NCBI GenBank assembly: GCA_947472795.1
Contig: CANJBL010000001.1
Span: 248,001-312,000 of the forward strand
From: Fidelibacterota bacterium
GTDB taxonomy: Bacteria > Pseudomonadota > Alphaproteobacteria > Rhodospirillales > Rhodospirillaceae
DNA length: 64,000 nucleotides
Direction: 5' to 3'
Shown here: positions 35,040 through 51,319 of the stretch, piece after piece
How the letters are laid out: each line of letters begins with the position of its first letter
Position numbering within the stretch: the stretch's first letter is position 1
Translations under genes and position numbers: made by a program
The notes under the pieces: generated by a model
Told to the model about the DNA's origin: nothing
The model's database searches: none
The model's input: only the letters and a program-made list of their open reading frames with translations

Positions 35040-35376
35040 TACTCTCTCCCTCGATCACGACATCTCCTATCACGTGGATGGAAAACGGCGTCAGGCTTTG
35101 TCCCTTGCAGGGTCCCCGAAGACATAAGCCAGTGTCTAGCGCAAAGTGCGCACCGTGGTTGGCGCAAAAAAGATACGTCCTGCTGACGTCAAAAAACGCG
35201 TCCTCGCGCCAATTGAGCGGCAGACGCGCATGCGGACAGGAATTTACATAGCCGAAAATGCGGCTCTCGCCCTTCGCTACGAACACGGGCAAGCGCGCGC
35301 CGTTCCTTTCCAGAACAATTTCCTTCGCGCCTGTTGCATCGAGATCGGCGAGGCGGCAGAGGACCTCTCCGGTCAT
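35029..35376 (-). CDS. Rieske-type [2Fe-2S] ferredoxin
   Basis: 115 residues with both Rieske ligand boxes: C47-P-H49 and C71-A-N-H74. The second box lacks the usual CxxHG-x-x-F form only slightly (CANHGAHF). No oxygenase subunit or reductase is adjacent. Small free-standing Rieske proteins act as electron carriers for oxygenases or of unknown systems. Its 3' end overlaps the start of acs. The overlap is on one strand, so translation of acs probably depends on this gene. Confidence 0.88.
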
Positions 35377-35386
35377 ATGTGTACCG

Positions 35387-35671
35387 TCATGCTGCCGGAA
35401 AGGTCTTGCGCGTGGGCTGGATGGTGACGGTCTGGAAAAGGCCGGCGATGGTATAGGGATCGGCCTTCTGGATGGCGCGCGCTTTTTCCAGGCTCTCGAA
35501 TTCGCCGATGATCAGCGAACCGATGGGCGTGGCGCCATCATCACCCAGAAGCGGGCCGCCATAGGTGAGACTGGCGGCGTAGCCTTGCAGCCACTCCAGA
35601 TGTTGTGGGCGCGTTTTCATGCGCAGATCGACGGAGCCCGGTTTATCCAGGCACATAATGGCAATGAGCAT
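35387..35671 (-). CDS. YciI family protein
   Basis: 94-residue ferredoxin-like-fold protein of the YciI/DUF1330-like group. The family's N-terminal FAI/AIMCLDKPGS strand, conserved R-x-x-HLEWL segment and GGPLLGDDG loop are all present. Activity is unproven in most members. In many alphaproteobacteria a yciI gene follows tsaD-gpsA; here manC lies between gpsA and this gene. It is 10 bases upstream of the Rieske gene. Confidence 0.88.
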   Translation of the reverse strand: MLIAIMCLDKPGSVDLRMKTRPQHLEWLQGYAASLTYGGPLLGDDGATPIGSLIIGEFESLEKARAIQKADPYTIAGLFQTVTIQPTRKTFPAA

Positions 35672-35689
35672 GTCCCCCTCTTTCTCTCT

Positions 35690-37369
35690 CTAGCGCCGGC
35701 GGCGCGGCTTGGTTGGTGTCTTGGGTGGTGTCTTCTTCGGCGGCGTTTTCTTGACTGGCTTGCCGGGCTTGGCGCGGAGCTGTGTCGATGGGCGCACGAC
35801 GCGCCGGCGCACACGCGGCCGACGCAGCGCCGCGGGATTGGCCTTGCGGCGAATTTTGCGTACAGATTTTTTAAGCGCTGCTTTCTTTGCTTTTGCTTTG
35901 GGCTTCGGCGTGGGGCGCTGATTGGTCTTGCCGACATCGTCGCGGCCATAGTCGTCGGCGATGCGCACAATGTCGTCCTCGCCCACGTACTCGCCGGACT
36001 GCACCTCGACCATATGGAGTTCCACATGACCGGGGTTGGCAAGGCGATGCACGGTGCCAGCCGCGATGTAAGTGGATTCATTCTCACGCAACGTGAAGAC
36101 CTTCTCGCCGCAGGTCACTTCGGCGGTGCCAGTCACCACGACCCAATGCTCGCTGCGATGCCAGTGCTTTTGCAGCGATAACTTCGCGCCCGGCTTCACG
36201 CAGAGGCGCTTCACCTTGAAGCGATGACCTTCGTCCATGGTCTGGAACCAGCCCCAGGGACGGTGCGTGCGCGCCTGAGCTGTCGCCTCGCTGCGGCCCG
36301 AAGCCTTCAAGCGCTCCACGATCTGCTTCACCTGCTGATCGTGCGCTTTGTCGGCCACCAGAACAGCGTCTGCCGTGACGACGACGATGGCGTCCTTGAT
36401 GCCGATCACGGCAGTGAGCTGCTTCTCGGTGCGCACATAGGTGTTCTTGGTGTCGATGGCGAGCACGTCGCCCAGCATCGTGTTGCCGGCGGCGTCGTGC
36501 TGCGCTTCTTCATGCAGCGCGCTCCACGAGCCCACATCAGACCAGCCCATGGCGACCGGCACCACGGCGGCTTTATCGGTGCGCTCCATGACGCCATAGT
36601 CGATGGACTGCGACGGAACTTTGGCGAAGGTCTCGGGATCGAGCCGGAAGAAGAAGAGATCGCTCTGGCCTTTGCTCAGCGCCGCGCGGCAGCCGGGCAC
36701 GATCTCGGGTTCGTTCTTGGTGAGTTCATCGAGATACAGACCCACGGGCCAAAGGAAAATGCCGCCGTTCCAATACACATCACCACCGCCGATGAGCGCT
36801 TTGGCTTTCTCGGCGTTCGGCTTTTCAACAAAGCTATCGACGGCATAAGCTTCCGCGTTCAGGGCTGTTCCTTGCTTGATATACCCGTAAGCCGTGGCCG
36901 GCGCGGTGGGGCGAATACCAAAAGTGACAAGGTGGCCGCCGGCGGCTGCGGCGACAGCATGATCGACCGCTTTGATAAAGGCCGCCGGATCGCGCACCAG
37001 ATGATCGGACGGCATCACCAGCATCAACGCGTCGGGCTCGTCCTCCAGAAGAAGAGCGGCGACACACGCTGCCGGCGCGGTGTTGCGCCCTTGCGGCTCG
37101 ATGATGATGGCTTTGGGCTCAATGCCGACAGCGCGCAGTTGCTCGGCCACGACAAAACGGTGCGCGTCATTGCAGACGACGATGGGCGCTTCCGCCTGAA
37201 AGCTCGCACCCTTGGCCGCACCTAAACGCAGCGCGGTTTCTTGCAACAGGCTGCGCTCGGACGTCAGGGGCTGAAGCTGCTTGGGAAATTCCTCGCGGGA
37301 CAAAGGCCAAAGCCTGGAGCCACTGCCGCCGGAAAGGATGACGGGATAGAGGCGCTGGACTTTGCTCAT
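35690..37369 (-). CDS. manC: Mannose-1-phosphate guanylyltransferase / mannose-6-phosphate isomerase with a basic C-terminal tail
   Basis: 559 residues. The N-terminal nucleotidyltransferase (about 1-345) has the GDP-mannose pyrophosphorylase loop GGSGSRLWPLSREEFPKQ and the FVEKP motif. The C-terminal cupin isomerase domain (about 355-475) has HRPWGWFQTMD and the metal-site segment QKHWHRSEHWVVV. Together they supply GDP-mannose for surface sugars. After residue 480 comes an unusual 79-residue tail with 34 Lys/Arg, many Ala and Pro, and no acidic residue, resembling histone H1 tails. The start region is duplicated (37368-37415). I use ATG 37369, with GGAG upstream; the duplicated frame extends to 37462. 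Confidence 0.93.
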   Translation of the reverse strand: MSKVQRLYPVILSGGSGSRLWPLSREEFPKQLQPLTSERSLLQETALRLGAAKGASFQAEAPIVVCNDAHRFVVAEQLRAVGIEPKAIIIEPQGRNTAPAACVAALLLEDEPDALMLVMPSDHLVRDPAAFIKAVDHAVAAAAGGHLVTFGIRPTAPATAYGYIKQGTALNAEAYAVDSFVEKPNAEKAKALIGGGDVYWNGGIFLWPVGLYLDELTKNEPEIVPGCRAALSKGQSDLFFFRLDPETFAKVPSQSIDYGVMERTDKAAVVPVAMGWSDVGSWSALHEEAQHDAAGNTMLGDVLAIDTKNTYVRTEKQLTAVIGIKDAIVVVTADAVLVADKAHDQQVKQIVERLKASGRSEATAQARTHRPWGWFQTMDEGHRFKVKRLCVKPGAKLSLQKHWHRSEHWVVVTGTAEVTCGEKVFTLRENESTYIAAGTVHRLANPGHVELHMVEVQSGEYVGEDDIVRIADDYGRDDVGKTNQRPTPKPKAKAKKAALKKSVRKIRRKANPAALRRPRVRRRVVRPSTQLRAKPGKPVKKTPPKKTPPKTPTKPRRRR

Positions 37370-38683: not shown

Positions 38684-39694
38684 ATGACAGTTCTTTTGAC
38701 CGGAGCAGCCGGGTTCATCGGCGCGCACGTGGCCCAACGTCTCGTGGCGGCAGGGCGACGCGTGCACGGCGTGGACAGCTTCACACCTTATTATGATGTG
38801 CGCCTCAAAGAGGCGCGCTGGACATGGCTGCAAGGTCTGGAAGGCTTCACAGGCCACCGCCTGGATCTGACGGACAAGGGCGGCCTTCTGGCGCTCTGCG
38901 ACCAGATTGAGCCCACGCGCATCGTGCACCTGGCGGCCCAGCCGGGCGTGCGCTACGGCATCGATAATCCGCAAGCTTATGTGGATTCCAACCTGACCGG
39001 TTTCATGAATGTGCTGGAAGCGGCGCGCGCCATTCAAATCCCGCATCTGGTATTCGCGTCCACCAGTTCGGTTTACGGCGCCAACAAAGCCATGCCTTTC
39101 GCCGAGCATCACAGCGCCTCGCACCCCGTCAGCCTTTATGCCGCCACCAAGCGCGCCAACGAACTGCTGGCGCATTCCTACGCCAACATCTTCCGTATTC
39201 CTGTGACGGGTTTGCGCTTCTTCACGGTCTATGGTCCCTGGGGCCGGCCCGACATGGCACCGCAGAAATTCACCGCACGCATCTGCGCCGGCGATTCCAT
39301 CGACGTCTATAACGACGGCAAGATGATGCGCGACTTCACCTTCGTCGATGACATCGTCGAGGGCGTGGTGCGTGTCACCGATCACATCGCCACGGTGGAC
39401 GAGGCTTGGGATCCCATGGCGCCCTTGCCCGACAGCAGCGGCGTGGCGCCCTTCCGCGTCTTCAACATCGGGCGCGGCGCGCCGGTGGCGCTGATGGATT
39501 TCATCGCGACGCTGGAGAAACAGATCGGCAAGAAGGCCGTGCTCAATTTCATGCCGATCCAGGCCGGCGATGTGGAAGGCACCTGGTGCGACGTCAGCGC
39601 GCTGAAGCGCGCCGTCGGTTATGAGCCGCGCGTCTCGCTGGAAGAGGGCCTGGCGAAAACCGTCGCCTGGTTCCGCGACTTCTACAAAGTTTAG
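38684..39694 (+). CDS. NAD-dependent nucleotide-sugar epimerase (UDP-glucuronate 4-epimerase-like)
   Basis: 336-residue extended short-chain dehydrogenase. NAD motif [10 protein letters not shown] is at residues 6-15, the catalytic serine in [10 protein letters not shown] and the YxxxK pair in [11 protein letters not shown]. The substrate-side segment [20 protein letters not shown] and [16 protein letters not shown] match UDP-glucuronate 4-epimerases (LpsL/CapI type), which make UDP-galacturonate for LPS or capsule. It is the only plus-strand gene between gpsA and tsaD, and its stop overlaps that of tsaD by four bases. Confidence 0.9.
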
Positions 39695-40749
39695 GCTTTA
39701 ATTCCGGCGCCGGTGGCTTTGGGTGCCGTAGGATCCAGCGGCCAACGCGGACGCGCTTTGAAATCCAAGCCGTCGATCAATCCCAATTTCAAACGCTCGA
39801 TGCCCGCCCAGGCAATCATGACGGCATTGTCGGTGCACAGTGCGATAGGCGGTGCGACAAGCGTCATGCTGGCGCGCGATGCGGTTGCGCTTAACGCCGC
39901 GCGCAGCGCGCTATTGGCGGCGACACCACCGGAAGCAACAAGCGTCGTGCCGGCAGGATAAGCATTGCGGAAAATGTCCACCGCGCGCTTCACACGATCG
40001 GCGATGGAGTCCACCAGCGCGGTTTGGAAAGATGCGGCGAGATCGTTCACGTCACTGTCTTGAAGCGCACCCGGCGGCAGCGCTTCCGCCGCTTGACGCA
40101 CGGCTGTCTTCAAGCCCGAGAAGGAAAAATCACATCCAGGTTTTCCTTTGAGGGGCCGTGGGAAGTCGAAACGCTTGGCATCACCACTTTTGGCCGCGCG
40201 CTCGATGGCCGGACCTCCCGGATATCCCAGGCCCAACATCTTGGCAATTTTATCGAACGCTTCACCGGCAGCATCATCCACTGTGGTGCCGAGGCGGTGA
40301 TAACGCCCGACACCTTCCACGGCGAGCAACTGACAGTGCCCACCGGAGACCAGCAGCAACAGATAAGGAAATTCCACTTTATCCGTGAGACGCGCCGTCA
40401 GCGCGTGACCCTCCAGATGATTGACGGCCAGCAGCGGCAGGCGGTGCACGGCCGATATGGCTTTGGCGGTCATGAGCCCCACGAGCACGCCGCCGATGAG
40501 GCCGGGGCCCGCCGTCGCCGCCACACCGGCAAGTTCGCCATAACTGACGCCTGCTTTGGACATGGTCGTCGTGACAAGCCGGTCGATCTGGGCCAGATGC
40601 GCGCGCGCCGCGATCTCGGGTACGATTCCGCCGAAGGGCTGATGCTCATCCGTCTGGCTTTGCACGGCTTCGGCCAGGATTCGTCCCTCGCCGTCCACCA
40701 CAGCGGCGGCGGTTTCATCACAACTGGTTTCGATGCCGAGGACGATCAT
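39691..40749 (-). CDS. tsaD: tRNA N6-adenosine threonylcarbamoyltransferase TsaD
   Basis: Catalytic subunit that transfers the threonylcarbamoyl group to A37 of ANN-decoding tRNAs. The ASKHA-fold opening [19 protein letters not shown] and the metal motif HLEGH (111-115) are intact. Length 352 is normal. Its partner gene tsaB lies 6 kb away at 47011. It is divergent from the hemD-mic60 fusion with 102 bases between starts; the same tsaD/hem divergence is common in alphaproteobacteria, normally with hemC first. Confidence 0.97.
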
Positions 40750-40851: not shown

Positions 40852-43800
40852 ATGCGGGTATTGGTCGTACAGTCGGCGCAGGACGCCGGAACGTCGGTCG
40901 CGGCCCTTGTGGCGCGCGGGCACGATGTGCTGTCGGCACCTCTGGTCAGCGCCGAGCGCACCGCAGCACCCGTCGTCAATCTCGCCGGCGCGCAAGCCTT
41001 CATCGTCACCAGCGCCGAGGGGGCCCGTGCGTTGGCCGAGCTTGTGGGCGTGCGCACGTTTCCCGTTTTCACCGACGGCGACGTCACCGCCGCCGAATTG
41101 AAGCGCTTGGGCTTCAAACAGGTGGAGACCGCCAAGGACGACGCGGCCGACCTCGCGCGCCTGGTGGAACGCAAATTAAAGCCCGCGGGCGGCGCGTTGA
41201 TTTATGCCTGCAGTACTTCGGCACCCATCAATCTCACCGCCATGTTGAGCAACATGGGCTTCGCCGTGCGCTCCGTTCCGCTCTACACGCTGAAGCGCGC
41301 CGAGAAAATGCCGGACTCCTTGCGCGCTGCTTTGACATCGCGCGCTTTGGATGCGGCGCTGTTCTTCTCCGCCGATGAGGCGCGCGCTTTCGTCGCTCTC
41401 GTGCAGCGCGATGAGCTCGAGCCTTTAGTGAACACGTTGGCGGCTGTGCCGGCCACGCCCATCGTGGCAGCGCCCTTGCGCGCGCTGAAACTGGGCGTCG
41501 TGAGCGTGCCCGCCGCCGCCGATCCCGATACGCTATTCGGGGCGCTGGACGTGAAGTTGGTCGACAAGGTGGAAGAAGACCGTCACGCGCGCGAGCGACA
41601 GATCAAGGAAGAGGCCGAACGCGAACGTGCGGCCAAAGCGGCTGCCGAGAAAGAGCGGCAACGCCAGGAGGACCTTGTTCGTGCGCGCGCTGCCGAAGAA
41701 GCCGCGCGTGAACGGGCGGCCCGTGAACGCGCGGAAGCCGAGCGCCTTGCGAAGGAGCAGGCGGAACGCGAGGCAGCGGAACGCAAACACCTGGAACAGG
41801 AGCGCTTGGAGCGCGAACGAGCGGAGCGCGCCGAGGCCGAGCGTAAACGTGCCGCCGAAGCCCAGGCCGAGAAGCAGCGGCTCGCCGAAGAGAAAGCCAA
41901 ACGCGACCGCGAGGAGCAGGAACGCAAGGCACGCGAGAAGGACGAACGTGAGCGTCAGGCCGCGGCGGAAAAAGCAGAGCGGGAGCGGTTGGCGGCTGAG
42001 CGAACCGAGCGGGAGCGTCAAGAAAGGGAACGCAAAGCCCAGGAGAAGGCCGAGCGCGAACGGCTGGTAGCCGAGAAGGCTGCTGCCGAGAAAGCAGAGC
42101 GCGAACGTATCGCCGCCGAGCGGACTGAACAGGAGCGCCAGGAGAGGGAACGCAAGGCCCAGGAAAAAGCTGAACGCGAGCGGCTTGCGGTCGAGAAAGC
42201 CGCTGCTGAGAAGGCAGAGCGCGAACGCATCGTCACCCTGCGCGCCGAACAAGAACGCGTGGAAAAGGAGCGCCGCGCAGCGGAGCGTGCGGAGCAGGAG
42301 CGTCTCGCCGCCGAGAGAGCCGCCGCCGAAAAGGCCGAACGCGAGCGATTGGCGGCCGAGCGCGCCGAGCAGGAGCGGCTAGCTAGAGCGGAACGAGAGC
42401 GATTGGCGGCTGAAAAAGCTGCTGCGGAAAAAGCGGAACGGGAACGGCTGGCAGCGGAGCGCGCGGAGAAAGAGCGCATAGAACGCGAGCAAGCTGCCGC
42501 AGCGCGCGCGGAACAGGAGCGCATCGCCGCCGAAAAAGCCGCTGTCGCGGCGGCGGAAGCTGCACGGGTGGCGCAGGAACTGGCGGTCCGCGAGCAATCC
42601 GAACGGGCCCGACTTGCCGCTGAGGCCGCCGAGCAAGCCCGCGTCAAAGCGGAACAGGAGGCCCGCGACAAGGGCGAACAGGAACGCCGCGCGCTTGCGC
42701 AAGCGGAGCAAGAACGCATCGCACGCGAAAAGGCTGAAGCAGAACGCAAAGAGCGTGAGCGTCTCGGCGCCGAACAGGCTGAACAGGACCGCATCGCGCG
42801 CGAGAAAGCCGAGACTGAGTGGGCCGAGCGCGCACGCCTCGCCGCCGAACAGGCCGAGCGCGACCGGCAAGAACACGAACGTCTGGCTTTCGAAAAGGCT
42901 GAGCGCGACCGGCTAGAGCGTGAGCGTCTGGCCGCCGAAAAAGCTGAACAGGACCGCATCGCGCGCGAGAAAGCGGAAGCCGAACGGGCCGAGCGCACGC
43001 GCCTTGCCGCCGAACAAGCGGAACGCGACCGGCAAGAGCAAGAACGTCTGGCCGCCGAAAAAGCTGAACAGGACCGTATCGCGCGCGAGAAAGCGGTGGC
43101 CGAACGGGCCGAGCGCACACGCCTTGCAGCCGAACAAGCAGAACACGATCGGTTGGAGCGTGAGAAGCGCGCTCAGGAACGAGCCGAACAGGACCGCATC
43201 GCGCGTGAGAAGGCCGAGGCGGAACGCCACGAGCGCGAACGCTTGGCGGCGGAAGAATCGGAGCGCAAACGGCAGGAACGCGAGCGTGTTGCCCAGGAGA
43301 AGGCGGAGCGGGATCGCTTGGCACGCGAAGGGCGTGAGCGCGAGAAGGCAGAGCAACAAGTGCGCAACGCGGCCGCCAAGGCTGAAAAGGAACGGCTTGC
43401 GCAGGAAGCCGCTGCACAAAAACGCGCGGCCCGCGAAGAACAGGCGCGCCTGAAGGCTGAACAGCGCGCAACCCAACCACACGTGAGTTGGTGGGCCCGC
43501 CTGATGGGCGGAGCCACCTCGCCCGCCGCCGCAGACCTTCGCGCGCCGTGGGACATGGCCACGGGACTTGATCCCAAACCCAAACAAGAAACCGCCGGCA
43601 CTTTATCGCCGTCCGATTCACCCATCGTGGTGGTCAGGGGCGTTTCATCAGCTAGAATAGAAGAGGTTGTGCCCGAGGCGCCCGCCAGGAATGTCACGCC
43701 GCACACCAAGGAAGAAAACCGCGTGCAAAAGTCCGAGGAAGAAACCCTGCCCGAAGAAGCCACCGCCACGCCGGCGCACGAAGCCAAACCCGTGCCCCGC

Positions 43801-45063
43801 AGCGGCGGCCGCGCGGCGCGGCTGCTGGCCGAGGATGCGGCCGATCTACGCGCCAAGGATCAGCGCTTCAAATATTTCGAGCGCAGCGAAGCCCCGGAAA
43901 CCGAATCTGCCGAGCAGACCCCTTCCGCGCAGCCTCACCCAGAGCAGCTTCACGAGCACCTTCAGCAGCAACCGCGCCGCATCGGCGGGGTCGTCCTCAT
44001 TGCCGGCATCGCGGCCGCCGCAGCGTTCGTTCTGTTCACCGCCTCAGGCTGGGTGCCGCGTGTGAAAGACTTTGTGCAAAGTCCCTTCAGCACGGAGCCA
44101 AGCAACGGCGACATCGCCGCCGCGCAAACCCACCCGGCAGAGCCCACGCCAAGTGCTGCCAGCGTCGAGGCCGTGAACGCACTCCGCCAAGACCTTGCGC
44201 AACGCCTCGCCGCACTCGAGGGCCGCGCGCCCGACAGCACTGGCGCAGTTGTCTCCATGGGCGACAGCCTCTCCAATCAGGCGAAGCAACTTGCCGCCAT
44301 GAGCGCGCGGCTTGCCACACTGGAAGCCGCCATCGGCAATTCGGCGCGGCTGGAAGACATCGCTAAGCGCATGACCGCGCTGGAGGGGCGAACTGCCGAG
44401 GCCCGCACCGTGCTGGAGCTGGGCGAGCGCGTCACCTCGCTTGAAACCATGGCGCGCAAGACCATGGTGGAGCAGAGCAGCACCATCGCCCTGGTGATGG
44501 CCGTGGGTCAGTGGCGCGAAGCCATGCTGGCGGGCCGCCCCTTCGCCGCCGAACTGCAGACCGTGAAAGCCCTCGCCGCGCGCCTGGGCAATAGCAGCGG
44601 TAGCGACATGAGCCCCGATGACACTGGCTTTGCCGCACACGCCGAGCGCGGCATCGCGACCTTCGCCGATTTGCAACGCCAGTTCCGCGCCACGGCCGCC
44701 GCCGCGACACGTGCGGCGGTGATGCCCGACAACACGAGCGCCTGGTACCGTCGCATCCTCGACCGCATGTTTTCCATCGTCACCATCCGGCGTCTGGATG
44801 GCGATGCGGCCGGCAACAGTACATCTTCAGTTCTCGCTCGCGCCGAACGGCACCTGAATGAAAGTGACCTGGCCGGAGCGGTGCGCGAAATGAGCGGGCT
44901 GACGGGATACGCCGGCGAAGCCGCTGCGCCCTGGCTGGACGCCGCGCGGGCGCGCGTGGCCGCCGAACATGCCGCCATCGATACCACCAACAAGGCCGTG
45001 GCAGCACTTGCAACCGTGGGCAAAGGGCTCGACGTGGCGACGCCCGCAACGAAGGCGCCCTAG
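40852..45063 (+). CDS. HemD-helix-Mic60 fusion: uroporphyrinogen-III synthase domain joined to a giant charged helix and a mitofilin domain
   Basis: 1403 residues in one open frame. Residues 1-235 match alphaproteobacterial HemD, which cyclises hydroxymethylbilane to uroporphyrinogen III (opening MRVLVVQSAQDAGTSVAALV, core VTSAEGARALAELV, late LDAALFFSADEARAFVAL). Residues 240-872 are almost only Glu, Arg, Lys, Ala and Gln in i/i+4 charge patterns: a very long coiled coil or single alpha-helix. A linker runs to 1040. Residues 1044-1066 (IGGVVLIAGIAAAAAFVLFT ...) are the only membrane segment. Residues 1070-1403 contain helices and the mitofilin/Mic60 C-terminal signature (VMAVGQWREAMLAGRPFAAE ... 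SIVTIRRLDGD ... ARAERHLNESDLAGAV). HemD would be cytoplasmic and the Mic60 part periplasmic. hemY starts 3 bases later. Confidence 0.88.
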   Translation: MRVLVVQSAQDAGTSVAALVARGHDVLSAPLVSAERTAAPVVNLAGAQAFIVTSAEGARALAELVGVRTFPVFTDGDVTAAELKRLGFKQVETAKDDAADLARLVERKLKPAGGALIYACSTSAPINLTAMLSNMGFAVRSVPLYTLKRAEKMPDSLRAALTSRALDAALFFSADEARAFVALVQRDELEPLVNTLAAVPATPIVAAPLRALKLGVVSVPAAADPDTLFGALDVKLVDKVEEDRHARERQIKEEAERERAAKAAAEKERQRQEDLVRARAAEEAARERAARERAEAERLAKEQAEREAAERKHLEQERLERERAERAEAERKRAAEAQAEKQRLAEEKAKRDREEQERKAREKDERERQAAAEKAERERLAAERTERERQERERKAQEKAERERLVAEKAAAEKAERERIAAERTEQERQERERKAQEKAERERLAVEKAAAEKAERERIVTLRAEQERVEKERRAAERAEQERLAAERAAAEKAERERLAAERAEQERLARAERERLAAEKAAAEKAERERLAAERAEKERIEREQAAAARAEQERIAAEKAAVAAAEAARVAQELAVREQSERARLAAEAAEQARVKAEQEARDKGEQERRALAQAEQERIAREKAEAERKERERLGAEQAEQDRIAREKAETEWAERARLAAEQAERDRQEHERLAFEKAERDRLERERLAAEKAEQDRIAREKAEAERAERTRLAAEQAERDRQEQERLAAEKAEQDRIAREKAVAERAERTRLAAEQAEHDRLEREKRAQERAEQDRIAREKAEAERHERERLAAEESERKRQERERVAQEKAERDRLAREGREREKAEQQVRNAAAKAEKERLAQEAAAQKRAAREEQARLKAEQRATQPHVSWWARLMGGATSPAAADLRAPWDMATGLDPKPKQETAGTLSPSDSPIVVVRGVSSARIEEVVPEAPARNVTPHTKEENRVQKSEEETLPEEATATPAHEAKPVPRSGGRAARLLAEDAADLRAKDQRFKYFERSEAPETESAEQTPSAQPHPEQLHEHLQQQPRRIGGVVLIAGIAAAAAFVLFTASGWVPRVKDFVQSPFSTEPSNGDIAAAQTHPAEPTPSAASVEAVNALRQDLAQRLAALEGRAPDSTGAVVSMGDSLSNQAKQLAAMSARLATLEAAIGNSARLEDIAKRMTALEGRTAEARTVLELGERVTSLETMARKTMVEQSSTIALVMAVGQWREAMLAGRPFAAELQTVKALAARLGNSSGSDMSPDDTGFAAHAERGIATFADLQRQFRATAAAATRAAVMPDNTSAWYRRILDRMFSIVTIRRLDGDAAGNSTSSVLARAERHLNESDLAGAVREMSGLTGYAGEAAAPWLDAARARVAAEHAAIDTTNKAVAALATVGKGLDVATPATKAP
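42928..43167 (+). repeat. Two 120-bp tandem repeats inside the charged helix
   Basis: 42928-43047 and 43048-43167 are adjacent near-identical 120-bp units encoding 40 residues each (LAAEKAEQDRIAREKAEAER then AERTRLAAEQAERDRQEQER in the first). More diverged copies flank them. This shows growth of the helix by in-frame duplication. Confidence 0.9.
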
Positions 45064-45066
45064 AAC

Positions 45067-46320
45067 ATGCCGCGGCTTGCTCTTTATGTGCTGATCGTGG
45101 CGGTGCTGACATCGGGCGCCGTGTGGCTGGCCAACGACCCCGGCATGGTGAGTCTCGCATGGCACGGCTGGGCGGTTGAAACCTCCGTCGGCGTCCTTGT
45201 CGCGACGATTCTGCTCGTGGTGTTTGCCATTTACAGCGGCATGCGCCTTGTCGCATTTGTCAGCGGCAAGGTATTGGCTTTCACGGCGCGTCGGCGCGAG
45301 CGGCGCATCAAGCGCGGTCTCATGAGTCTCGGTGACGGTTTCGCCGCCGTGCAGGCCGGTCAGGCTGACGCCGCAAGACGGCACGCCAAGGAAGCCGCCA
45401 CACTGCTGAGCGACAACTCCGCCGTTCTGCTGTTGCGTAAAGATGCTGCCGGTTTGTCGGGCGATGCGCGCGAAGCGGAAGCGGCAGCACAAGCGCTGCT
45501 CGCGCGCCCGCAGACAGAACTTGCCGGTCTGCGCACGCTGGCGACAAAGGCGTTGGCGGATGGTGACGTGGTCGGTGCGGTGGGTTATGCCCGCCGCGCG
45601 CTTGGCCGCAAGGATGCGCCACCCTGGGCGCTCAGCGTCCTGCTCGATGCCGAAATCGCCACCCAGCGCTGGACCGATGCGCTTGCCGCGCTGGAGGAAC
45701 GCGTTGCGCGCGACGTCTTCTCGCCTGTGGATCTCAAGCGGTTGAAATCGCGCCTGCTGGCTCTGCAGTCGGCGGAGCTGTTGAGCCACAACGACACCAT
45801 CGGCGCGGCGCACGCGGCGCGCAAAGCGCTCGACCTCGATGAGCTGAACCCGGACGCTGCCATTGCGCTCGCTCGCGCCATGACAGCGCAGGGGCGAGGG
45901 GCAAAGGCGGCCGATGCGATCGAACGTGTGTGGACGGCCAAACCGGGCCCCGCGTTATTGGCCGCTTACCGCGCGCTGGTACCGGCAGAGTCGACGCTGG
46001 ATTGGGCGAAACGCGTGGATGCTTTGGCCAAGGCCGCGCCCGATCACCCTGAAAGCCGCCTCGCCGTGGCCGAGGCATCTCTGGAAGCACAGCTGTGGGG
46101 CCAGACACGCAACCGCGCCACAGCGTTGACAGGTGAAGAGTCGGCGCCTTTGATCCGCGCACGCGCTGCGCATCTTCTCGCTGACATGGAAAAGCGCCAA
46201 GGCGGCGACAGCGGCAAGACCGCCGAGTGGCTTTATCTCGCGCTACGCAGCCGCAAGGAAGCCGAAGGCGAGCCCGCCAAACCGAAGACCGTGGCCGAAC
46301 TTCTCGCCCAAGCTTCTTAG
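45067..46320 (+). CDS. hemY: HemY N-terminal-domain TPR membrane protein
   Basis: 417 residues. Two membrane segments at the N-terminus (ALYVLIVAVLTSGAVWLA and TSVGVLVATILLVVFAIYSG) are the HemY_N domain; the rest is TPR-like helices. This is the proteobacterial hem-operon HemY, not the protoporphyrinogen oxidase of Gram-positive bacteria. Its role is linked to haem synthesis but not settled. It starts 3 bases after the HemD-Mic60 fusion, matching the usual hemD-mic60-hemY order. Confidence 0.92.
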   Translation: MPRLALYVLIVAVLTSGAVWLANDPGMVSLAWHGWAVETSVGVLVATILLVVFAIYSGMRLVAFVSGKVLAFTARRRERRIKRGLMSLGDGFAAVQAGQADAARRHAKEAATLLSDNSAVLLLRKDAAGLSGDAREAEAAAQALLARPQTELAGLRTLATKALADGDVVGAVGYARRALGRKDAPPWALSVLLDAEIATQRWTDALAALEERVARDVFSPVDLKRLKSRLLALQSAELLSHNDTIGAAHAARKALDLDELNPDAAIALARAMTAQGRGAKAADAIERVWTAKPGPALLAAYRALVPAESTLDWAKRVDALAKAAPDHPESRLAVAEASLEAQLWGQTRNRATALTGEESAPLIRARAAHLLADMEKRQGGDSGKTAEWLYLALRSRKEAEGEPAKPKTVAELLAQAS

Positions 46321-48720: not shown

Positions 48721-49176
48721 ATGACGCAAACGACCGCTTCACATCAGCCTGCTTCGCATATCGAGCAGATCTGCATGGAAAAGGGCATGAAAATGACCGA
48801 ACAGCGCAGGATCATTGCGCGTGTTCTGTCGGATTCCACTGACCATCCAGATGTGGAAGAAGTTCACCGCCGCTCGGCGGCCGAGGATTCACGCATCTCC
48901 ATCGCCACCGTCTATCGCACCATGCGCCTGTTCGAGGACGCCGGCATCGTCAAACGCCATGAATTCGGCGACGGACGCGCCCGATATGAAGAGACACCCG
49001 CATCGCATCATGATCACCTCATCGATATGCGCTCGGGCAAGGTGACGGAGTTCCGCAACGACGACATCGAACGCCTGCAGCATGAAATAGCTGCCGCTCA
49101 CGGCTACAAGTTGGTGGGCCACCGCATGGAACTTTTTGTCGTTCCCCTCGATTCCGAAAAAGAAACAGAACGATAA
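48721..49176 (+). CDS. fur: Fur-family transcriptional regulator
   Basis: 151 residues. The winged-helix recognition helix is SIATVYRTMRLFEDAG (60-75). The metal-site segment HHDHLIDMRSGKVTEF (96-111) is Fur-like, but the CxxC that binds structural zinc in E. coli Fur is absent (DMRSG instead), as is usual in alphaproteobacterial Fur/Mur. These proteins sense iron or manganese; which one cannot be decided here. The position next to rimI and upstream of a plsC-type gene and miaB is the conserved alphaproteobacterial one. Confidence 0.94.
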   Translation: MTQTTASHQPASHIEQICMEKGMKMTEQRRIIARVLSDSTDHPDVEEVHRRSAAEDSRISIATVYRTMRLFEDAGIVKRHEFGDGRARYEETPASHHDHLIDMRSGKVTEFRNDDIERLQHEIAAAHGYKLVGHRMELFVVPLDSEKETER

Positions 49177-49453
49177 CACGACATATTGTGGCGTCCCGGT
49201 TACTGTCTTTCGACAGCTAGTGCGGGGGCCTAGGATTTCTGTCATAAATACGCAACAATAAGCCCCTCTTCGGAGCGGAACGCCTTTGGGTATGTCTTTG
49301 ACGGTCCGCGATCTGACAAGATCGACGCTTAAATCGACGGTGTCGCTGACGCGTAAAACCACCTCGACGTTGACATCGACACTACGACTGACCTTGCAGT
49401 TTCTGGGACGGCGCAAGACTCAGCCCCGCAACAGACATGGACGCGGATTCAAC
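49177..49453 (+). other. Region upstream of olsB
   Basis: 277 bases with no independent gene. The olsB frame is open back to 49286 (TTG) and 49292 (ATG) and would add a Thr/Ser/Arg-rich extension of about 54 residues, encoded by DNA in which ATCGACG-like words recur. The region may be leader or a true N-terminal extension. Confidence 0.4.
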
Positions 49454-50395
49454 ATGACGGTTTTATATCCCCAGACTTCGGCTGCACTTGCGGGCGCCTC
49501 CTCGCCCAGCAGCACCGAAGCCCTGGCCGCCGCTCTTGAGTTCACTACCGCCGGTACCGCCTTCACGCGCGTACAGTGCGGGTTCGAGCCGGTGGTTTCC
49601 GGCAACCAGATCATCCGCCTGGCCACCTCGGCCAATGAACTCGATGCGGCGCAGGCTCTGCGCTACCGCGTCTTCTACGATGAGATGGGCGCGCACCCCT
49701 TGCCCGAGATGGCCGCCACACAGCGCGACTTCGACCACTATGACGCCGCCTGCGATCATCTGATCGTGGTCGACCAGCACCGTCCGCACGAGACACAAGT
49801 GGTCGGCACCTACCGCATCATGCGCCGCGAGCACGCGCGTGCTGCCGGCGGCTTTTATTCCGCCTCCGAATACGATATCTCGCGCCTTGCCAATTTCCCC
49901 GGCGCGGTGATGGAACTGGGCCGTTCTTGCGTCGACGCTGCCTACCGCGACCGCGCGACGCTGAACCTCTTGTGGCGTGGTATCGCCGAGTACCTCAACA
50001 TCCATGAAGTGGATTTGATGTTCGGCTGCGCGAGCTTGCCCGGAACGGATCCTGAGAAGCTGAAGATGCAGCTGTCTTACCTCTATCACTATCATCTGGC
50101 GCCGGAGTCTTTGCGCACACGCGCGCTGCCCGACCGCTACACCAACATGAACCTCTTGCCGAAAGAAGCCATCGACCCCAAGCGCGTCCTGGCGAGTTTG
50201 CCGCCGCTTTTAAAGGGTTACTTGCGTGTCGGCGCGTTTGTTGGCGACGGCGCCGTCATCGATCATCAGTTCAACACCACCGACGTCTGCATCATCGTCA
50301 AGACCGAGATGATCGCGGGCCGCTATACGCGCCACTTCGATCTCGCCGAACGCCACCCCGATCACGGGGCTGCGTCATTAAAGCGCGCGTCGTAG
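49454..50395 (+). CDS. olsB: L-ornithine N(alpha)-acyltransferase OlsB (GNAT fold)
   Basis: 313 residues. Transfers a 3-hydroxy-acyl chain from acyl carrier protein to ornithine, giving lyso-ornithine lipid. Family features are RYRVFYDEMGA (near 75), the DFDHYDAACDHLIVVD block, VVGTYRIMRREHA, and VMELGRSCVDAAYRDRATLNLLWRGI. The acyltransferase gene that follows suits OlsA, completing ornithine-lipid synthesis. ATG 49454 is my choice; an N-terminal extension from 49292 is possible. OlsB is commonly induced by phosphate limitation, but I see no clear Pho box. Confidence 0.88.
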   Translation: MTVLYPQTSAALAGASSPSSTEALAAALEFTTAGTAFTRVQCGFEPVVSGNQIIRLATSANELDAAQALRYRVFYDEMGAHPLPEMAATQRDFDHYDAACDHLIVVDQHRPHETQVVGTYRIMRREHARAAGGFYSASEYDISRLANFPGAVMELGRSCVDAAYRDRATLNLLWRGIAEYLNIHEVDLMFGCASLPGTDPEKLKMQLSYLYHYHLAPESLRTRALPDRYTNMNLLPKEAIDPKRVLASLPPLLKGYLRVGAFVGDGAVIDHQFNTTDVCIIVKTEMIAGRYTRHFDLAERHPDHGAASLKRAS

Positions 50396-50397
50396 CG

Positions 50398-50428
50398 TTT
50401 TCGGAAAAGTGGCTTCCGGTTTTCCGGA
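50398..50428. repeat. Second copy of the mosaic repeat core
   Basis: GAAAAGTGG (50404-50412), three bases, CCGGTTTTC (50416-50424): the same core as 24669-24689 on the other strand, matching at 18 of 21 positions. It fills the gap between olsB and olsA and lacks the first palindrome. Confidence 0.75.
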
Positions 50429-50443
50429 TAGAAAGTGCGCCCC

Positions 50444-51319
50444 ATGAAAAATCTCGCGCGCGACCCGGATCCCACAAAAGATGATCGCGCCGGGGAACCC
50501 GAACCCGCGATGCCGACCACAGGCACTGGATCAGTGGTTGCCGGCGTGCGTGTATTCTTCTTTCTCCTCACATCCCTTATCGCGACGCTAATCGCCGGAA
50601 CGCTGAACGGGCTGGGTATCAACTCGGCACCTTTCCGCCGCTGGTACTACCGCGTCTTGAAGCATGTCGTGGGCTTACGCGTGGTCGCACGCGGCAAGCA
50701 GAGCACCGCGCGGCCCCATCTGGTCGTGGCCAATCACATTTCCTATTTCGATATCGCCGTGCTGGGCTCGCTCGTTGCCGGTGATTTCATCGCCAAGGCC
50801 GACATCGCCAACTGGCCGATCTTCGGCATCATGGCAAAGGCCGGGCGCAGTGTGTTCATCGACCGGCGCCGCAGCGCCACCAGCGATGCGCGCGATCAGA
50901 TTCAAGAACGCCTGGATGACGGCGACACACTCATCATGTTCCCGGAGTCCACCTCGGGCGACGGCAACCGCATGAAGCCTTTCAAGAGCGCGCTGTTCAC
51001 CGTGGCGGAGCGGCGCGTGACGGGGAAGGATGGGCAGAGCCAACCCATCCTCGTGCAGCCGGTGTCCATCGCCTACACGCGCCTCAATGGATTGCCGCTC
51101 GGTGTCGGTTGGCGGCCCTTCGTCGCGTGGTACGGCGACATGGAGATGAGCTCGCACCTGTGGCAAGCCTCGAAGCTCGGCACCTTCACGGTGGAGGTGA
51201 TTTTCCATGAGCCCGTAACCCTGGCCGAGTTTTCCGGCCGCAAGGCCCTTGCCGCCCACTGCGACCAGGTGGTGCGCCGGGGCATGGCCAACGCGCTGGC
51301 CGGCCGGGCCGCGGCTTAA
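50444..51319 (+). CDS. olsA: 1-acyl-glycerol-3-phosphate-type acyltransferase, probable OlsA
   Basis: 291 residues with a hydrophobic N-terminal segment (VFFFLLTSLIATLIAG) and the PlsC motifs: NHISYFD with H98 and D103 (HX4D) and FPESTSGDGNRM near 167-178. Because it directly follows olsB, it most likely adds the second fatty acid to lyso-ornithine lipid, though phosphatidate synthesis (PlsC) cannot be excluded. ATG 50444 is preferred over GTG 50435. It is 48 bases after olsB, with a repeat core between. Confidence 0.85.
   Translation: MKNLARDPDPTKDDRAGEPEPAMPTTGTGSVVAGVRVFFFLLTSLIATLIAGTLNGLGINSAPFRRWYYRVLKHVVGLRVVARGKQSTARPHLVVANHISYFDIAVLGSLVAGDFIAKADIANWPIFGIMAKAGRSVFIDRRRSATSDARDQIQERLDDGDTLIMFPESTSGDGNRMKPFKSALFTVAERRVTGKDGQSQPILVQPVSIAYTRLNGLPLGVGWRPFVAWYGDMEMSSHLWQASKLGTFTVEVIFHEPVTLAEFSGRKALAAHCDQVVRRGMANALAGRAAA

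Follow-up and report, generated by a model that had tools for sequence, protein, structure and literature searches.

Why does a gene of haem biosynthesis travel with the gene of a cristae-type membrane protein? The hemD-mic60 neighbourhood is common in alphaproteobacteria. The stretch of DNA analysed here (the window: 64,000 nucleotides, G000:C1:248001-312000, part of a 3.2-Mb draft genome) poses the question in an extreme form: HemD and Mic60 are encoded by one gene, with a long charged linker between the two domains. An earlier note on this sequence had described the gene and proposed that it fixes a haem-pathway enzyme at the membrane through a charged helical rod of about 90-95 nm. We confirm the fusion and its architecture; the interpretation is partly supported. 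The fusion recurs in related genomes, its linker has the charge pattern of a single alpha-helix, a second HemD gene lies elsewhere in the genome beside hemB, and the fused HemD has lost several signature residues while staying under purifying selection.

One frame encodes HemD and Mic60

The frame is open throughout, and the calculated mass of its product is 155 kDa, both as the earlier note had stated. Its two domain assignments held as well: the HEM4 and Mitofilin matches exceed the curated cut-offs (Table 1), and the former spans positions 4-230 of the 231 in the profile, which makes it a full-length HEM4 domain. The Mitofilin match was the only one found when the genome itself was searched, and a profile built for this Mic60 (A1) matches the solved Mic60-Mic19 structure 7pv1 (E 1.4e-8). 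The G+C content is lowest at codon position 2 in the HemD, linker, and Mic60 parts alike (0.88, 0.48, and 0.65 at the three positions in the linker). A stretch resembling a Shine-Dalgarno sequence precedes three in-frame codons (319, 958, and 1347), of which only 958 is well placed, as a possible internal start for Mic60 alone.

A hydrophobic stretch was found where the earlier note had placed the membrane segment. By analogy with Mic60, and given the Arg-Arg pair ahead of the segment, the N-terminus would lie in the cytoplasm and the mitofilin domain in the periplasm. Between the linker and the membrane, the Pro-rich stretch of the window protein contains the conserved motif GRAARLLAEDAAD. 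The pattern GR[AST]xx[LM]x[AV]EDAAD was present in 16 of the 17 relatives scanned, the exception being a locus with a short linker (L058); it also occurs in L140, L141, and L147 and is visible in L143-L145, but not in L146.

The linker has the pattern of a single alpha-helix

The linker (residues 240-873) consists largely of glutamate (166), alanine (161), and arginine (130), followed by glutamine (46) and lysine (45); it has three glycines and no proline, and the longest proline-free run of the protein covers 650 residues (226-875). Opposite charges stand four residues apart (i+4) about 183 times, versus 100+-8 in shuffled sequences, and like charges about 14-16 times, versus about 97-98+-8. 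Split by order, the opposite pairs comprise 116 base-acid (50+-5 expected) and 66 acid-base pairs (49+-5 expected). The hydrophobic residues L/I/V/M/F/W show little periodic power, 0.2 at the heptad period of 3.5 and 0.7-1.1 at the hendecad period of 3.67; in 15 relatives, the maxima are 2.9 and 3.1, respectively. Dense opposite charges at i+4, no proline, and no heptad core are the sequence criteria of a single alpha-helix (SAH) domain, and the linker fits such a helix rather than a coiled coil. A conventional two- or three-stranded coiled coil was rejected for want of heptad or hendecad power, and the shuffle tests rule out a chance low-complexity frame.

The linker repeats itself at multiples of five residues (15, 25, 40, and 55). 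Where codons 40 residues apart encode the same residue, however, 89 of 149 fourfold-degenerate third positions carry different bases; thus, what is kept is a protein pattern and not a DNA repeat. The charge pattern is also shared by relatives. The linker test set comprised 18 proteins, of which the Pro/Glu-rich L056 and the short L058 were left unscored because they have no proline-free run longer than 250 residues. In all 16 others (13 from the window's genus, g1, one from g9, and two from g3), opposite charges at i+4 exceed the shuffles by about 4.8 standard deviations or more, and like charges fall below them.

If every residue were helical and added 0.15 nm, the window linker would be about 95 nm long, and the stalks of the 16 helix-type proteins would measure about 55-100 nm. 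The helical rod of the earlier note is compatible with the i+4 pattern, but its length is not a constant. Proline-free runs range from 370 to 678 residues across the 16 proteins, and linker chemistry differs between sister genera: HemD and Mic60 are joined by long (EP)n repeats in genus g2 (L143-L145), by Pro/Glu-rich linkers of about 550-650 residues in g7 (L056 and L141), and by Ala-rich charged linkers in g3 (L057 and L140). Thus, the stalk is no fixed ruler, and we dropped a fixed molecular ruler as the main explanation. As a separate observation, basic-aromatic segments of amphipathic appearance, for example KKFAAFMSRYRAK, are spaced along the g7 linkers, three or four per linker.

The fusion recurs in the order, and the long linker marks one clade

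The HemD part of the fusion was searched in 61 genomes, most of the relatives' being drafts. Matches were found in 59, and the surroundings of 57 relatives were taken for comparison (L037-L093). The same architecture, which the earlier note had suggested looking for in relatives, is present as a complete frame in 13 of the 19 genomes of the window's genus (G000-G018); in three a contig end truncates it within or beyond the linker, and three have frame changes. An assembly chimera is therefore ruled out. The frame changes of G017 and G010 fall at different positions in the linker region, and that of G012 lies within HemD; a programmed or shared break was considered for the first two, but since they do not coincide, we treated them as separate errors or losses. 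In the window's clade as a whole (23 loci, L037-L059), 17 loci have one HemD-Mic60 frame, among them L054, where the initial HemD portion is in another frame; four are cut by contig ends, and two have frame changes, at different places. Two members of the clade, G022 and G217, have short linkers, with whole frames of 652 and 715 residues.

Outside the clade, HemD and Mic60 share one frame, a shorter one, in 14 of 34 loci (L060-L093) and occupy separate frames in 17; in the remaining three, the DNA fetched gives no Mic60 match. The short fusions have the same two domains in the same order, lack the long charged linker, and are followed by a frame with a HemY match. A search with HEM4 alone in 198 genomes of the order yielded, among the matches listed, further HemD domains in frames of 500-1169 residues. 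Thus, the fusion recurs in the order, whereas the long stalk is confined to one clade. The earlier note knew of no described protein of this design. Among the matches listed in the open-licence literature we likewise found no HemD-Mic60 fusion with a long helix, which is weak evidence of absence; the joining of the two domains is nonetheless shared by the shorter fusions of the order. Literature on bacterial SAH domains, on active-site residues, and on the source lakes was also consulted and gave no further lead.

In two further loci of genus g7, L148 (G226) and L149 (G228), HemD is split across frames, by sequencing error or by loss of the head; the Mic60 frame of G226 is intact. The 22 named loci matched by the Mic60 alignment come from metagenome genomes, six of which carry the label Rhodospirillaceae; a lake habitat is suggested by isolate names that include Baikal and Erken. 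Eleven records labelled Candidatus Marinimicrobia (L098, L099, L101, L103, L104, L107, L108, L111, L112, L114, and L115) encode this type of Mic60, and these labels therefore look wrong. A plasmid collection gave one weak Mic60 match and HemD matches in 13 records; neither of the two regions inspected held a fusion.

A second HemD lies beside hemB

The window's genome has a second HEM4 gene on another contig (HemD2; 234 residues, about 63.5-63.8 bits), directly ahead of hemB (ALAD, 438.6 bits) and downstream of genes for phosphoadenosine-phosphosulphate (PAPS) reductase and sulphite/nitrite reductase. A HemD2 profile (A4) found matches in 22 of the 25 fused-clade genomes, G035 being counted on partial pieces. 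In the three others (G017, G018, and G024), hemB is also missing or cut, and the assemblies therefore probably lack the HemD2-hemB locus. For this reason, we did not accept G024 as a counter-example, although it is 99% complete and its fused HemD is its only HEM4 match: it too has no hemB match. In all 18 HemD2 loci compared, hemB adjoins HemD2 (as just a piece in L136), and within flanks of about 2.5 kb, PAPS-reductase and sulphite-reductase genes lie upstream in 13 and 12, respectively.

Genomes outside the clade have one HEM4 match each, with the exception of two with two matches (G039 and G051) and two with none (G036 and G042); the second match of G039 is under the cut-off, and one of G036 and G042 is of unknown clade. 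In 13 of the 14 short-linker genomes, including the single-contig G052, the fused HemD is the sole HEM4 match; the other is G039. A third kind of HEM4 gene was seen at L120, L123, L130, and L131 (G001, G012, G007, and G010), in frames of 274-307 residues with high Pfam scores and a poor match to the alphaproteobacterial HemD profile. G017 has a similar Pfam match. The HemD2 set does not include the four loci.

The fused HemD has lost signature residues and is under purifying selection

As a signature reference, we used the 35 columns that do not vary among 20 single-copy HemDs, hand-picked from the 34 loci outside the clade (10 short-linker fusions and 10 others), and compared with it 22 fused heads (the alignments omit L052 and L054) and 18 HemD2 proteins. 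The head of the window protein (the N-terminal 236 residues) keeps 21 of the 35 columns, G76 included, and also retains Y145; it is without R7, P8, N56, V75, G96, V98, A125, G126, P174, T176, L201, S202, A220, and P223. In the same genome, HemD2 retains 14, so the column count alone cannot separate head from HemD2. The two sets differ in which residues they keep. R7 is kept in one of 22 fused heads versus 17 of 18 HemD2 proteins, V75 in none versus 17, G76 in two (one of them the window protein) versus 17, A220 in seven versus 17, and P223 in two versus all 18. V75-G76 corresponds to the VG in a stretch that alignments also show in the human enzyme and in two solved bacterial ones. The reverse holds for L19, Q48, R59, A60, L104, and G114, which the fused heads keep but HemD2 has for the most part lost. 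Signature residues are already lost in the short-linker head of G022.

In a midpoint-rooted tree of 60 HemD sequences (22 fused-clade, 20 single-copy, and 18 HemD2), the fused-clade HemDs form one group (100/100) on a long stem (1.03), nested among single-copy HemDs, and HemD2 forms a separate group (100/100). The ratio of nonsynonymous to synonymous substitution rates (dN/dS) of the fused HemD is 0.05-0.18 in seven pairs of relatives, and in five of these it lies below the Mic60 value; the figures are rough, as dS comes close to 1 in some cases. Rather than decaying, the fused head is under purifying selection. A search of solved structures with the single HemD domain as query led nowhere.

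What the fusion protein may do

Judging from these sequences, the protein may be a Mic60-family member anchored in the inner membrane, with a stiff helical stalk and a HemD-derived, possibly noncatalytic head that has acquired a new role; we regard this reading as a whole as about equally likely to be right or wrong. That the fused head has lost catalysis seems somewhat more probable than that it has kept it. On this account, neighbouring hemD and mic60 genes would have fused first, when HemD was still active. Once HemD2 beside hemB had assumed uroporphyrinogen III synthesis, the fused head, relieved of this duty, would have dropped signature residues, while the linker grew in some genera. The new role under selection would most likely be to bind, at the stalk's tip, a partner or a tetrapyrrole; the stalk could act as a spacer keeping the head far from the membrane domain or as a filler of the cytoplasmic face of a curved membrane.

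Several findings weigh against this account. The fused heads keep more of the invariant columns than HemD2 does (median 20 versus 16 of 35), and T176, L201, N56, and G126, kept in none of the 22, are kept in none or one of the 18 HemD2 proteins too; changed in both sets, they do not separate one from the other. Y145, which aligns with a tyrosine of the human enzyme that is a candidate catalytic residue, is kept in 20 of 22 fused heads, and according to PMC7242693, no residue of this enzyme has been identified as essential. Whole-profile scores likewise favour the fused domain, with 91 bits versus about 63.5-63.8 for HemD2 in Pfam and 89 versus 25 for PRK09189 in NCBIfam; the NCBIfam equivalog cut-off for HemD (223 bits) is reached by neither (83-89 for the fused head, 25 for HemD2). 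The wide variation of the linker in length and chemistry argues against a precise ruler, and a photosynthetic reaction-centre gene was found in none of the 19 genomes of the genus.

Part of this evidence would be explained if the fused HemD were still an active uroporphyrinogen III synthase, placed in a membrane-linked complex for haem synthesis that includes HemY and later enzymes, while HemD2 served the sulphite-reductase/sirohaem branch, near the genes of cysH and cysI type. We consider this unlikely, but it is the alternative that deserves most weight. The retained Y145, the higher profile scores, the sulphur genes upstream of HemD2, and the position of hemY directly 3' of the fusion all agree with it, and so does the fused HemD being the sole HEM4 match of nearly all short-linker genomes, where the enzyme reading of the earlier note fits. 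In the window's clade, such tethering of an enzyme is doubtful because a second HemD lies beside hemB and signature residues have been lost: R7 in 21, V75 in 22, G76 in 20, and P223 in 20 of the 22 heads, residues that 17-18 of the 18 HemD2 proteins keep. Moreover, hemB is a gene of the common trunk of haem synthesis and accompanies HemD2 at all 18 loci, and frame changes occur in the fused HemD of G012 and of G226, where sequencing errors are possible.

The cytoplasmic part might instead work by its bulk, a crowded charged chain favouring, together with the Mic60 domain, the bending of the membrane into the cytoplasm as tubes or crista-like folds, while the head is a passive remnant. Mic60 homologues are described as bending membranes and acting in the development of intracytoplasmic membranes (PMC12136173), and linker chemistry varies among genera (E/R/K/A helix, EP repeats, or Pro/Glu-rich) while charge stays high, both as this explanation would have it. 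It is nevertheless slightly less likely than an active enzyme: the strong purifying selection on the head disfavours a passive remnant, and the clade members G022 and G217 manage with short linkers. Quite improbable, finally, is a functionless low-complexity expansion tolerated between two working domains. The spread of proline-free run lengths and the 15-, 25-, 40-, and 55-residue repeats are typical of repeat growth and loss, but residues are kept while the DNA drifts at fourfold sites, and the salt-bridge pattern persists in every one of the 16 proteins scored.

Returning to the account of a HemD-derived head on a Mic60 stalk, its consequence would be that, if the HemD fold stays on Mic60 after catalysis is lost, the link between hemD and mic60 is physical or regulatory rather than one of co-expression. 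A more speculative version, which we would not expect to hold, is that a HemD-derived pseudoenzyme on the stalk senses tetrapyrroles or a partner from the haem pathway and reports to the membrane, that linker chemistry is exchangeable between genera, and that these proteins form a new membrane-shaping class.

Comparison with known systems

Fused proteins annotated as HemD/HemX occur in Betaproteobacteria; there, likewise, HemD is joined to a HemX-type membrane protein, and we know of no charged helix of such a kind in them. TolA domain II and the EP/KP rods of TonB carry a long Ala/Glu/Lys helix or an EP repeat on one membrane segment, in the periplasm. Both chemistries are found in the fusion clade, and the (EP)n linkers of genus g2 resemble TonB rods; the stalk of the fusion, however, would be cytoplasmic. 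HemX has been termed a mitofilin homologue (PMC7641849), and a role of Mic60 in alphaproteobacterial membranes has been published (PMC9764997, PMC12136173). With Mic60/mitofilin, both as the core of the mitochondrial contact site and cristae organizing system (MICOS) and in alphaproteobacteria, the fusion shares a single membrane segment followed by the mitofilin C-terminal domain; it differs by an N-terminal extension of more than 1000 residues with a HemD fold at its end. The linker, in turn, shares with SAH (ER/K) domains, for example those of myosin VI, Drebrin, and the CAF-1 KER segment, dense E/R/K residues, opposite charges at i+4, and no heptad hydrophobics. Spacer roles have been proposed for SAH domains, and three tabulated segments measure 53-74 residues (PMC12203971), whereas the window linker has about 630 and is bacterial, Ala-rich, and built of five-residue units. 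If helical, it would be a very long natural charged helix in a bacterium.

Gene neighbourhood

Table 1. Features of the fusion gene and its immediate neighbours (window coordinates; residues are those of the fusion protein)
Feature	Coordinates	Strand	Evidence or remark
tsaD, divergent, upstream of the fusion	39691..40749	-	TIGR03723, 411.9 bits (cut-off 296.1)
HemD-charged helix-membrane segment-Mic60 fusion gene	40852..45063	+	1403 codons, no internal stop
HEM4 (HemD) domain, residues 16-229	40897..41538	+	Pfam PF02602, E 1.4e-24, above curated cut-off
Charged linker, residues 240-873 (634 residues)	41569..43470	+	composition, i+4 pattern, periodicity
Pro-rich, probably disordered juxtamembrane stretch, residues 876-1043	43477..43980	+	sequence and alignment
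Short aromatic/basic segment SWWARLMGG, C-terminal of the helix, loosely conserved	43486..43512	+	region alignment
Conserved motif GGRAARLLAEDAAD, residues 985-998, N-terminal of the membrane segment	43804..43845	+	pattern scan of relatives
Single transmembrane segment, residues 1044-1066	43981..44049	+	hydrophobic stretch in the sequence
Mitofilin/Mic60 C-terminal domain, residues 1142-1374	44275..44973	+	Pfam PF09731, E 3.2e-18, above curated cut-off
hemY	45067..46320	+	HemY_N, E 4.7e-16; TIGR00540, E 4.2e-21, under its cut-off

An alphaproteobacterial locus hemC-hemD-IMMP(mic60)-hemY beside tsaD has been described (PMC7641849), and the order of genes in the window is the same: divergent tsaD, then hemD, mic60, and hemY. 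The window differs in that HemD and Mic60 share one frame, that hemC lies elsewhere, on another contig of the genome (C3) together with hemE and hemF, and that a second HemD accompanies hemB. The earlier note was also correct about hemY: the stop codon of the fusion (TAG, 45061-45063) is separated by a gap of three bases from the hemY ATG at 45067.

Farther out, a gene of the sugar-nucleotide epimerase type (38684-39694, +) occupies, on the opposite strand, the space between tsaD and gpsA, and two adjacent frames at 35258-36181 and 36224-37225 (+; 307 and 333 residues) have no Pfam or NCBIfam match at E 1e-4. On the other side, the region 48721-51319 (+) holds a Fur-family frame (under the cut-offs), an ornithine-lipid N-acyltransferase-like gene (under the cut-off), and an acyltransferase gene.

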